A stretch of DNA of 64,000 nucleotides from Alistipes sp. GTDB taxonomy: Bacteria > Bacteroidota > Bacteroidia > Bacteroidales > Rikenellaceae. Positions 9,518-50,290 of the stretch are shown piece by piece. The position numbers were made by a program, and so were the translations under genes. The stretch spans positions 62,001 through 126,000 of the forward strand of contig JAFXIS010000017.1 in NCBI GenBank assembly GCA_017532885.1, in the 5' to 3' direction. Under the pieces are notes generated by a model. That model saw only the letters and a program-made list of their open reading frames with translations, did not search any database and had not been told where the DNA came from. How positions within the stretch are numbered: the stretch's first letter is position 1; the number at the start of each line of letters is the position of its first letter.

Positions 9518-9635
9518 AAGTCGTATAGCAAGAGGGATTTTTAGGACTGCGAGCCAGAGAAACCGCAGCATACTAAAGCGTATGTGAGGATTTCGAGGGC
9601 GAGTATGACGCCAAAATCACCTTGCTTGACGACTT
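9518..9635 (-). repeat. Family 1 3'-UTR structured element, copy A (groEL)
   Basis: Bounded by 15-nt inverted arms (9518-9532 and 9621-9635, 13 of 15 paired). In the middle, 9559-9594, is the conserved hairpin GAAACCGCAGCATAC, loop, GTATGTGAGGATTTC. It begins 11 nt after the groEL stop codon and ends 7 nt before the terminator. It shares outer arm, apical hairpin and orientation with the copy at 50168-50290. Confidence 0.7.
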
Positions 9636-9645
9636 CGCGGCTCTA

Positions 9646-11277
9646 TTACATCATTCCGCCCATACCACCCTGCGGCATCGCAGGCATAGCAGGTGCGGGC
9701 TCCTTCTTCTCGGCCAACACACACTCTGTAGTGAGGAACATCGAAGCGATAGAGGCAGCATTCTCCAATGCTACACGCGATACCTTGGTGGGGTCGATAA
9801 TACCCGCAGCCAACATATCCTCATACTTGTCGTCACGAGCATTGTAACCCATTGAGCCCTCGCTCTCCTTTACCTTATTTACTACAACCGAGCCCTCGCC
9901 ACCTGCATTGGCAACAATCTGACGCAAAGGCTCCTCGATAGCGCGCTTAACAATCTGGATACCGGTTGTCTGGTCCTCGTTCTCGCCCTTCATATTCTCA
10001 AGTGCGGCAACGGCACGGATATAAGCCACGCCACCACCGGGAACGATACCCTCCTCAACGGCAGCACGCGTTGCAGCCAAAGCATCATCCACGCGGTCCT
10101 TCTTCTCCTTCATCTCAACCTCGGTAGCAGCACCTACATAGAGAACTGCAACACCACCCGAGAGCTTCGCCAAGCGCTCCTGCAACTTCTCGCGGTCGTA
10201 GTCCGATTTGGCAACCTCGATACCGCCACGAATCATTGCGATGCGAGCTGCGATAGCCTCCTTCTGACCTGCACCATCGACGATAGTGGTATTCTCCTTG
10301 TTCATCGTTACCTTCTCGGCAGAGCCAAGCATATCGAGAGTGGTATCCTCAATCTTCATACCCTTATCGGTCGATACTACGGTACCACCTGTGAGGATTG
10401 CAATATCCTCCAACATATCCTTACGACGGTCGCCGAAGCCCGGAGCCTTGCAAGCCGCAACCTTCAACGCACCACGCAACTTATTCATAACCAATGCCGA
10501 CAAAGCCTCGCCATCGACATCCTCGGCGATAATCAAGAGCGAACGGCCGTTCTGTGCCACGGGTTCCAAAACGCCCATAATCTCCTTCATGGTCGAAATC
10601 TTCTTGTCGGTGATAAGAATGAGTGGTTTCTCCAACTCGGCAGCCATCTTCTCGGTGTCGGTCATAAAATAAGCCGAGATATAACCGCGGTCGAACTGCA
10701 TACCCTCGACAACATCTACATGAGTCTCGGTACCCTTTGCCTCCTCAACGGTGATAACGCCCTCGTTGTTCACCTTCGCCATAGCCTCGGCGATAAGTGA
10801 ACCGATAGCCTTATCGTTGTTTGCCGAGATTGTAGCCACCTGCTCAATCTTCGAGATATCGTTGCCAACCTCCTGTGAAAGTTTGCGCAACTCCTCGACA
10901 ACGACTGCCACAGCCTTATCCATACCGCGCTTCAAATCCATAGGATTAGCACCTGCAGTAACATTCTTCAAACCTACGCCGATAAGCGCCTGTGCCAATA
11001 CGGTTGCAGTAGTTGTACCGTCACCCGCATCGTCATTGGTCTTTGAGGCAACCTCCTTAACCATCTGGGCTCCCATATTGGCGAAAGCGTCCTCCAACTC
11101 AATCTCCTTGGCTACGGTAACGCCATCCTTTGTCACCTGGGGTGCGCCAAACTTCTTATCGATAATCACATTGCGACCCTTGGGGCCCAAAGTAACCTTC
11201 ACGGCATTTGCCAAAGCATCTACGCCCTCCTTCAAAAGGTCGCGTGCCTCTACATTATATTTAATCTCCTTTGCCAT
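9646..11277 (-). CDS. groEL: Chaperonin GroEL (Hsp60)
   Basis: 543 residues, full length. It is the ATP-driven double-ring chaperone that folds proteins in the cytosol with GroES. The sequence shows VKVTLGPKGRNV near residue 30, the ATP-site DAGDGTTTATVLAQA near 87-100, and PGGGVAYIRA near 413. It ends with the flexible Gly-Met tail (PQGGMGGMM). groES lies 33 nt upstream on the same strand, forming the usual operon. A family 1 element and terminator follow. Confidence 0.98.
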   Translation of the reverse strand: MAKEIKYNVEARDLLKEGVDALANAVKVTLGPKGRNVIIDKKFGAPQVTKDGVTVAKEIELEDAFANMGAQMVKEVASKTNDDAGDGTTTATVLAQALIGVGLKNVTAGANPMDLKRGMDKAVAVVVEELRKLSQEVGNDISKIEQVATISANNDKAIGSLIAEAMAKVNNEGVITVEEAKGTETHVDVVEGMQFDRGYISAYFMTDTEKMAAELEKPLILITDKKISTMKEIMGVLEPVAQNGRSLLIIAEDVDGEALSALVMNKLRGALKVAACKAPGFGDRRKDMLEDIAILTGGTVVSTDKGMKIEDTTLDMLGSAEKVTMNKENTTIVDGAGQKEAIAARIAMIRGGIEVAKSDYDREKLQERLAKLSGGVAVLYVGAATEVEMKEKKDRVDDALAATRAAVEEGIVPGGGVAYIRAVAALENMKGENEDQTTGIQIVKRAIEEPLRQIVANAGGEGSVVVNKVKESEGSMGYNARDDKYEDMLAAGIIDPTKVSRVALENAASIASMFLTTECVLAEKKEPAPAMPAMPQGGMGGMM

Positions 11278-11310
11278 ATCTTTGTTTGCTTTTAATCGTT
11301 AGACCTGAAA

Positions 11311-11580
11311 TTAGCAGATAGCCAAAATATCGCTCTGCTTCATAATGAGGTAGTCGGTACCATCTACATTGATTTCGGTGCCGGCATACTTGCCATAGAG
11401 AACTGTATCGCCCTCTTTAACCTCCATCTTAACATCTGCTGTGCCGGGGCCTACTGCCACAACCTTACCCATCAAGGGTTTCTCTTTTGCTGTATCGGGG
11501 ATGAACAGACCGCCTGCGGTCTTCTCCTCTGCCGCGTTTGGTAATACCAAAACTCGGTCTGAAAGTGGTTTAATTGCCAT
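11311..11580 (-). CDS. groES: Co-chaperonin GroES (Hsp10)
   Basis: 89 residues from ATG 11580 (MAIKPLSDRVLVLPN). An in-frame upstream Met would add 20 residues not found in the family, so the shorter start is chosen. GroES caps the GroEL cavity; GGLFIPDTAKEKP is the mobile loop that contacts GroEL, and the C-terminus YLIMKQSDILAIC closes the barrel. It is the first gene of the operon, about 80 nt downstream of a possible sigma-54-like site. Confidence 0.97.
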   Translation of the reverse strand: MAIKPLSDRVLVLPNAAEEKTAGGLFIPDTAKEKPLMGKVVAVGPGTADVKMEVKEGDTVLYGKYAGTEINVDGTDYLIMKQSDILAIC

Positions 11581-11658
11581 AATCTTATCTGTTTTATTTG
11601 TTATTATTAAAATTTTCCTCCTTGCACTTACGACCTTCACGGTCGCGACATATTCTCC

Positions 11659-11674
11659 AACAACAGATGTGCCA
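11659..11674 (-). promoter_or_regulatory. Possible sigma-54-like promoter of groES-groEL
   Basis: Minus strand TGGCAC-ATCTG-TTGTT, close to TGGCAC-N5-TTGCW, about 80 nt before the groES ATG. The -12 element has GT in place of GC, which weakens the call. A GC-rich inverted repeat lies just upstream (about 11693-11725). No TAnnTTTG box is seen in this leader. Confidence 0.3.
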
Positions 11675-11833
11675 AACGATTTTTGTCACACAAGACTGCC
11701 ACGCTTTGCGTGCGTGGTCTGCCATTTTGTCAGCCGCGCAGATAAAAAAGCGTCGTAATTTCAACAATCTGTCATTTCAGGTGCGAAGTTTGCAAAATTA
11801 TTTCTAATTTTAGCCTCTCAATCGGAAATTCTT

Positions 11834-49848: not shown

Positions 49849-49940
49849 TGAAAAAGTATGTAAAAATGGCCACAAACAGACTATTCACCGAAGGTGAAGT
49901 GACAAAATTGGGCGGTGAAATTGCATCTGCACAATAATGA

Positions 49941-49969
49941 AGAGGGTGTCCCAATTGGAACACCCTCAT
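49941..49969. terminator. GAGGGTGTTC-type hairpin
   Basis: AGAGGGTGTCCCAATTGGAACACCCTC, the same stem family as the hairpins after the PurF-like gene and gdhA. The T run is weak and its role here is unclear. Confidence 0.4.
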
Positions 49970-50069
49970 TTCTCAACAAGTTTTGTTCAGAATGTCGCAC
50001 GGAAATTTAGGGAATTTAAGGAGTTTAGGGAGAGTTTTTTGCGTCAGCGCTAATTTCCCTAACTCACTA

Positions 50070-50114
50070 TAAAAAACAGTGTGTTCCACAAATTTGGAAC
50101 ACACTGTTTTTTTT
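50070..50114 (-). terminator. Terminator of the MocA-DUF1080 operon
   Basis: Near-perfect stem of about 19 bp, AAAAAACAGTGTGTTCCA with TGGAACACACTGTTTTTT, T run in both directions. It lies just beyond family 1 element C. Confidence 0.8.
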
Positions 50115-50121
50115 CGCAAAC

Positions 50122-50144
50122 AAGGCAGATGCCGAAAGAGCCTT
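50122..50144 (-). repeat. Family 1 right-arm fragment next to copy C
   Basis: AGGCAGATGCCGAAAGAGCC sequence identical to part of copies C and D, giving a partial tandem copy between the terminator and element C. Confidence 0.6.
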
Positions 50145-50167
50145 AGCAAGACGCCTTGTTTCTCCCA

Positions 50168-50290
50168 AGAATTCGTAGAACAAGAGCTATTTTGAAGCTG
50201 CTCGAAGATGTAAAAACCGCAGCATACTGAGCGTATGTGAGGATTTTTACAGCGAGGCAGATGCCGAAAGAGCCTTGTTATACGGATTCT
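50168..50290 (-). repeat. Family 1 3'-UTR structured element, copy C (DUF1080 gene)
   Basis: Bounded by 17-nt inverted arms, 50168-50184 and 50274-50290, 15 of 17 paired. The centre, 50209-50251, is a hairpin with perfect TGTAAAAA/TTTTTACA arms, CC/GG pairs and CATAC/GTATG around the loop. It starts 11 nt after the stop codon. The right arm is identical to 40341-40377. Confidence 0.75.

Follow-up and report, generated by a model that had tools for sequence, protein, structure and literature searches.

The hairpins of REP/BIME and IS200/IS605 elements act in single-stranded DNA and show a replication-strand bias, and the original study of the Yersinia palindrome YPAL is said to describe a preference for sites after stop codons. 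The subject of this work is an imperfect palindrome of ~125 nt that is repeated across Rikenellaceae and other Bacteroidales. It was noticed in a stretch of 64,000 nucleotides from Alistipes sp. (assembly GCA_017532885.1, contig JAFXIS010000017.1, positions 62,001 to 126,000), hereafter the window. On balance, we favor its reading as a palindromic insertion element of a large, MITE-like (miniature inverted-repeat transposable element) superfamily of ~125-nt elements that includes RPE1 of Rickettsia—an element whose complement-strand hairpin is selected, likely as DNA, and which is tolerated after co-directional stop codons.

In the accessible text of a review, YPAL—also named RU-2—is described as a palindrome of ~167 bp that is co-transcribed with upstream genes (PMC2229807). 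The RU-2 sequence printed in the available part of PMC2759123 lacks the tip of our family in a comparison by eye; hence, YPAL is treated here as an analogue and not as a demonstrated relative. For sedentary integrons, the accessible part of PMC5371416 places attC bottom strands on the leading-strand template. Like the family, attC sites are imperfect hairpins recognized by structure, and the parallel to sedentary attC sites, as far as that text describes them, includes a hairpin after the stop and an active strand that is antisense to the gene and lies on the leading-strand template (PMC5371416). Unlike attC sites, however, family copies are dispersed behind resident genes such as groEL and form no cassette arrays, which sets them apart from integrons. 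No description of the element in Bacteroidetes was found in the accessible parts of PMC2229807, PMC2847712, PMC2267715, PMC2759123, PMC5371416, and PMC3767692, a search that left subscription journals mostly outside.

A palindrome family with relatives in Rickettsia

The apical hairpin CTCACATACGC-n-AGTRTGCTGCG, searched with up to three substitutions allowed, matches the window three times, each time exactly and on the minus strand (copies A, B, and C), as the first-pass annotation of the window had stated. A tip-pattern scan of genome contigs yielded at least 120 stretches, among them 118 from Alistipes, Tidjanibacter, or Rikenellaceae assemblies, one from an uncultured Bacteroidales bacterium, and one from a Rickettsia endosymbiont (locus L006); the pattern is also present in one viral contig (L001). 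In the window and loci together (956,845 bases), the related tip pattern occurs 132 times exactly and 22 times with one to four substitutions—a count biased by the retrieval of the loci through this very tip—and a single simple base shuffle of these bases gave zero matches at up to four substitutions. A model (R1), built from Bacteroidales copies only, was run on 198 Bacteroidales genomes with 17 candidates scored in each and has matches at E ≤ 1e-5 in 41 of them; the 157 genomes without a match mean that R1 does not match everywhere. Fourteen genomes were reached via tip loci, and element counts range from 14 to 130 in 13 genomes, with up to 150 candidates scored in each.

The arms carry the evidence for a conserved fold, since the tip served as the search key and its invariance is thus not evidence. 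In 76 aligned copies, 87.6% of the cells of a 39-pair structure are paired (66.5% after shuffling), and the covariation score amounts to 0.505 as compared with 0.161 after shuffling and no more than 0.151 for slid versions; the alignment used for scoring also served to derive the structure. Double changes are found at 34 of the 39 pairs, so that the compensated stems, originally proposed from three copies, hold on a much larger set. Close copies, a set that included one viral (L001) and one Rickettsia (L297) locus, differ on one side of stem pairs only when they are at least 96% identical, and double changes appear from ~95% identity downward. Either arm correction or selection may underlie this pattern. 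Tandem arrays of the element exist at L064 (1905–2500), L002, L007, and L112 with a spacing of ~120–140 nt (243 nt at L112), and at several loci, a left-half copy sits behind a full copy.

Although R1 contains no Rickettsia sequence, it matches all 16 Rickettsia genomes, 1–122 times each and with a best E of 3.3e-19. Copies from both sides have a length of ~125 nt, the tip CTCAC(A/G)TAC...GTA(T/C)GCTGCG, and arm blocks in common—hence, a palindrome of 100–150 bp with the shared tip and arm blocks that place the family in the RPE1 superfamily. Of seven peptides from Rickettsia loci, four match TIGR01045 (RPE1), three of them above the cut-off. The peptides of A, C, and L020 have no TIGR01045 match, and that of L072 reaches 16 bits (E 0.0088) at a cut-off of 30, which is why the family is regarded as related to RPE1 and is not classed as RPE1 itself. 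The initial statement that no named family is known is partly wrong, as the Rickettsia relatives include the named element RPE1; the window copies and other Bacteroidales copies stay below this cut-off. Rickettsia copies also behave differently: 12 of 34 classified ones lie inside called open reading frames (ORFs), and they show neither a tight stop position nor the orientation bias described below.

Beyond Rickettsia, the related tip was found in 41 IMG/VR stretches. For one of these elements, similar repeats exist on 34 plasmid records, mostly from Sphingobium, Shinella, and other alphaproteobacteria, and another resembles repeats on 105 plasmid records, mostly enterobacterial, and on 23 phage records. 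Repeats similar to the latter are present in 5375 of 5426 E. coli genomes at a median of five places. Of 46 such loci, 38 have an R1 match at the tip (E ≤ 0.1; 23–51 bits); by this sequence likeness, the proteobacterial copies are likely homologous, less securely than those of Rickettsia. The enterobacterial repeat of ~145 bp, for example between rplT and pheM of E. coli, shares the tip type and matches R1 weakly (34.9 bits), yet its arms differ and the rplT–pheM copy has its CTCAC strand antisense to the flanking genes. This repeat may be the one called RSA, for which a literature search returned no paper. In blastn searches, copy C matched neither plasmids nor phages, and a Rickettsia copy did not match plasmids. 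Rfam gave no match either: the window elements have none at gathering thresholds, and eight other loci have none at E 0.01. The relationships described here join repeats described separately under one structural signature and suggest that the RPE1 type is not Rickettsia-specific.

The strand under selection

Mismatches within the arms reveal which strand is selected to fold. They were counted on a strand-neutral arm alignment as isolated mismatches with two Watson–Crick pairs on each side, in 159 nonredundant Bacteroidales-side copies without L001 and L297, whose inclusion gives almost the same result. Read on the CTCAC (mRNA-like) strand, GT/TG mismatches number 9 versus 116 AC/CA—an excess due in large part to a small number of conserved positions. 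In the count restricted to positions with no more than 5% mismatches, GT/TG stands at 5 versus 32 AC/CA and GA/AG at 2 versus 36 CT/TC. Terminators from the same contigs show the reverse (GT/TG 96 versus AC/CA 19). The 20 Rickettsia copies (GT/TG 6 versus AC/CA 11; CT/TC 16 versus GA/AG 0) and 29 IMG/VR copies (8 versus 33; 18 versus 0) were counted likewise. If internal loops are included, the count is nearly even (GT/TG 198, AC/CA 221); the strand argument uses only isolated mismatches outside the conserved positions. Seen from the complement strand, the frequent mismatches are G·T and G·A, which are the better-tolerated ones, and this argues against selection on the mRNA strand.

Folding energies agree. 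With DNA parameters, the complement strand is the more stable one in 155 of 159 Bacteroidales-side and 20 of 20 Rickettsia copies, with RNA parameters in 145 of 159 and 19 of 20, and with the tip neutralized (DNA parameters) still in 152 of 159 and 19 of 20. Terminator regions lean the opposite way, the sense strand being more stable in 218 of 309 (RNA) or 193 of 309 (DNA parameters). The selected hairpin would form on the strand complementary to the CTCAC strand and would act most likely as DNA, in replication or transposition, and not in the mRNA; an RNA role in addition to the DNA hairpin may exist.

The first-pass annotation had deduced selection on a transcribed mRNA fold and had considered a 3′-UTR (untranslated region)-derived small RNA. 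Neither proposal is supported: mismatches and energies favor the complement—the opposite of a fold selected on the transcribed strand, as a 3′-UTR regulatory RNA should show—orientation tracks the replication strand and not gene direction alone, and orthologous sites without the element exist. Since a named relative, RPE1, exists as well, that interpretation was only partly right. More generally, the strand under selection in a repeated palindrome can be told by a simple test in silico that compares its mismatch asymmetry with that of terminators.

Replication strand, stop codons, and the origin of the bias

Orientation was analyzed on contigs of the genomes G011, G012, and G014 plus the window, together ~1.96 Mb, where R1 has 69 hits. 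On individual contigs, the elements are locked to one strand to a large extent: plus/minus counts are 1/14 (G012C11), 0/7 (G014C11), 8/3 (G012C2), 7/1 (G011C58), 8/0 (G011C56), 0/0 (G011C22), 0/10 (G014C6), 7/0 (G014C1), and 0/3 (window). Genes are much more balanced by strand and, on G014C6, even lean the opposite way (124 plus, 83 minus). The strand richer in G than in C over 50 kb (the G-rich strand) carries 59 of the 69 copies, also where most genes point the other way. Among the hits listed from the 13 genomes counted above, same-contig pairs share the strand in 58 cases and differ in 13. Stop-adjacent sense copies follow 44 leading and 4 lagging gene ends, as compared with 214 leading and 149 lagging gene ends with terminators (Fisher p 2e-6); the leading strand is here assigned by GC skew, and copies are not independent events. 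No 16S motif was present in the fetched contigs for an independent check of replication direction. Among the 69 copies, 36 lie between convergent and 22 between same-direction genes, and 7 are antisense to both neighbors, one of them inside a called gene. In these terms, the stable-folding strand would lie on the leading-strand template, and Rikenellaceae copies would enter or survive mainly behind stops of genes that are transcribed along the replication direction. The lock thereby offers a concrete, testable case for studying the mobility or persistence of short palindromes in bacterial chromosomes.

The lock might be set at insertion or arise through later loss of wrongly oriented copies. 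In a strict version of the latter, the element is the same and the lock is made entirely after insertion, copies with the stable strand on the lagging-strand template being lost through hairpins formed there, as argued for sedentary integrons. The position of the stable strand on the presumed leading-strand template fits this version, as the same is reported for attC bottom strands in the accessible part of PMC5371416. The Rickettsia copies, however, have the same stability difference (20 of 20) and yet no lock, which makes such an origin unlikely. This is not decisive in view of the distribution of SbcD: none of 16 genomes has a match above the cut-off, and sub-threshold matches are present in 11 of 12 genomes on the Bacteroidales side and in none of the 4 Rickettsia genomes.

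Stop adjacency was assessed on 154 copies from the window and loci L001–L121, a set biased to exact tips, with genes called by our own ORF and codon-score method. Of these, 136 are intergenic with an upstream gene, 15 are intergenic without a called upstream gene, and 3 are inside called genes. In 120 of the 136, the upstream gene is on the same strand, and copies between tandem genes run with the gene direction in 63 cases and against it in 9. Where a same-strand stop lies within 100 nt (99 copies), 83 copies begin to pair across the tip 0–10 nt 3′ of that stop. One family in one orientation close to stops, as first proposed, is thus supported. A preference for a stop type is not claimed: TGA precedes only 3 of 99 copies, and background use is equally low (11 of 289 genes on G012:C11). 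The proposed order of stop, element, and terminator applies to A, B, and C, which are each followed by a hairpin with a T-run, and not as a rule: in a strict scan, a terminator-like hairpin follows 20 of 63 full copies within 90 nt, and 342 of 1346 gene ends that lack the element have one within 120 nt.

It is this sense position in 120 of 136 copies, together with the strong covariation, that would speak for an mRNA 3′-UTR structure kept for stabilizing or processing the upstream transcript or for releasing a small RNA; YPAL offers a precedent, with a possible effect on upstream RNA stability mentioned in the accessible text of the review (PMC2229807). Yet, G·U is avoided on the mRNA strand, unlike in terminators, 155 of 159 copies fold more stably as the complement, and copies are nearly confined to one replication strand, including those antisense to both neighbors. 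We hence consider a 3′-UTR function quite improbable.

Element-free orthologous sites exist, which supports the suggestion of a mobile module. The groEL site is readable in all Bacteroidales-side genomes but G002 and G010, and no tip follows groEL in 9 of 9 other readable Bacteroidales-side genomes (G004, G005, G007, G008, G009, and G011–G014). The copy at this site in G001 and G003 belongs to another subfamily than that of the window, and behind it lies a decayed copy with a left arm similar to that of window copy A; judged by eye, the newer one was inserted between the stop codon and the older one. GroEL of G003 is 100% identical to that of the window, and the last 500 nt of the gene are only ~95% identical, so that the window stems from a close relative of G003 and not from G003 itself. 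Further filled and empty orthologous pairs were found, some too diverged for reading the ends. The ends of the element pair and differ between subfamilies. This variation speaks against a conventional MITE, whose terminal inverted repeats would be cut at TA by a DDE transposase and which would hit stops because TAA and TAG contain TA. Some copies do have TA at or near both ends by eye, and TA ends are common in bacterial MITEs (Table 1 in the accessible text of PMC2229807), but the outer arms—the expected place of constant terminal repeats—vary while staying complementary, and such a transposase alone does not explain the replication lock; we regard this explanation as very doubtful. A domesticated polar chromosome landmark for replication or segregation is hardly credible: dispersed copies are indeed strongly strand-biased, yet related genomes carry different copies or none at a given site, and copy numbers vary as given above.

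The favored reading—an RPE1-superfamily insertion element selected as a complement-strand DNA hairpin—presumably requires an enzyme that moves copies in trans. Several observations weigh against it. Searches for Y1 transposase, reverse transcriptase, and integron integrase identified no mover: none of 13 Bacteroidales-side genomes carries Y1 (PF01797), only 3 of them (G004, G009, and G014) have a reverse transcriptase, and integron integrase (TIGR02249) is above the cut-off in 0 of 16 genomes, 12 of them Bacteroidales-side. The empty sites found established no target-site duplication. Strong covariation would be expected of a functional RNA too, and convergent neighbors (36 of 69) could in principle transcribe the complement strand. 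Ten of the 69 copies are off the G-rich strand, several in parts of G012C2 and G011C58, and three Rickettsia genomes (36 hits in 20 stretches) split 16 versus 20. Hence, the lock is not universal, and it is not created by the method either.

None of the three resident movers is supported by these genome searches; the mover may be located elsewhere, in other strains. Sub-threshold tyrosine recombinases occur in 16 of 16 genomes and likewise in 14 of 14 controls. The missing Y1 also separates the family from REP/BIME and IS200/IS605 elements, as does the Y1-rich Rickettsia genome G022, which has a single element match: of four Rickettsia genomes searched, G006 has 2 and G022 has 49 Y1 matches. 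Several of these 49 are stop-broken or cut short. A wider scheme can be put forward tentatively: a superfamily across phyla (Bacteroidales, Rickettsia, and other alpha- and gammaproteobacteria) might propagate in the form of single-stranded DNA hairpins through a mechanism not yet described; the recognized strand would be antisense to the upstream gene, and insertion during replication would target the stops of co-directional genes.

Copies and other features of the window

All five elements of the window (A–E) lie on the minus strand in one orientation, each 3′ of the stop of a minus-strand gene (TAA, TAA, TAG, TAA, and TAA, in order), in agreement with the original description. The distance from stop to element, by eye, is ~5–6 nt for D and E, ~10–15 nt for A and C, and ~30 nt for B. 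Copy A (9512–9639) is a full element 3′ of the groEL stop with an exact tip at 9564–9588 and an R1 score of 108.1 bits. Copy B (14152–14350, ends by eye) lies 3′ of a DUF4387 gene with its tip at 14278–14302 and an R1 match at 14252–14329 (48 bits); its right arm is broken by an extra insert, which occurs twice in the scanned loci and window (B and L010), both times adjoining an element tip. Copy C (50164–50292) is a full element with its tip at 50218–50241 and 99.4 bits to R1, and the gene upstream encodes a 3-keto-disaccharide hydrolase (DUF1080-type) domain (PF06439). In tandem with C lies a left-arm remnant of repeat family D3 (50115–50160, ends by eye, minus strand) with TTCGGCATCTGCC at 50124–50136, which had not been listed before. 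The terminator-like minus-strand hairpins with T-runs after A, B, and C are at 9475–9509, 14111–14142, and 50070–50107, respectively, with ends by eye.

D (40340–40377) is directly 3′ of its stop and identical to C over 38 nt, and E (22537–22562), a diverged form of the arm seen in D, directly follows the stop of a PepSY-like gene. Both are single-arm remnants as first described; they are left arms in the orientation of the element, the earlier term "right arms" referring to plus-strand coordinates.

Further features touch the family only by proximity or not at all. An Rfam match to 5_ureB_sRNA (58406–58700, minus strand, 51.3 bits) is antisense within the urease alpha-subunit gene (58099–59970, plus strand, PF00449) and is probably conserved urease coding sequence and not a true small RNA. 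A second interspersed repeat (CGTCATTCTGAGGAGGC...), unrelated to the palindrome, is found at 9305–9344 and 40121–40160 with 93% identity across 40 nt. Short A/T-rich direct repeats of the AATTTTGAATTTTGAATT type are located at 40298–40334, 56013–56049, and 35430–35454, one of them adjoining remnant D. A unit of ~375 nt is repeated four times in imperfect tandem (313–1811) inside a 535-aa ORF (300–1907, minus strand) that has no Pfam match. Finally, a 22-nt inverted repeat at 7273–7316 has abutting arms of 91% complementarity and is terminator-like.

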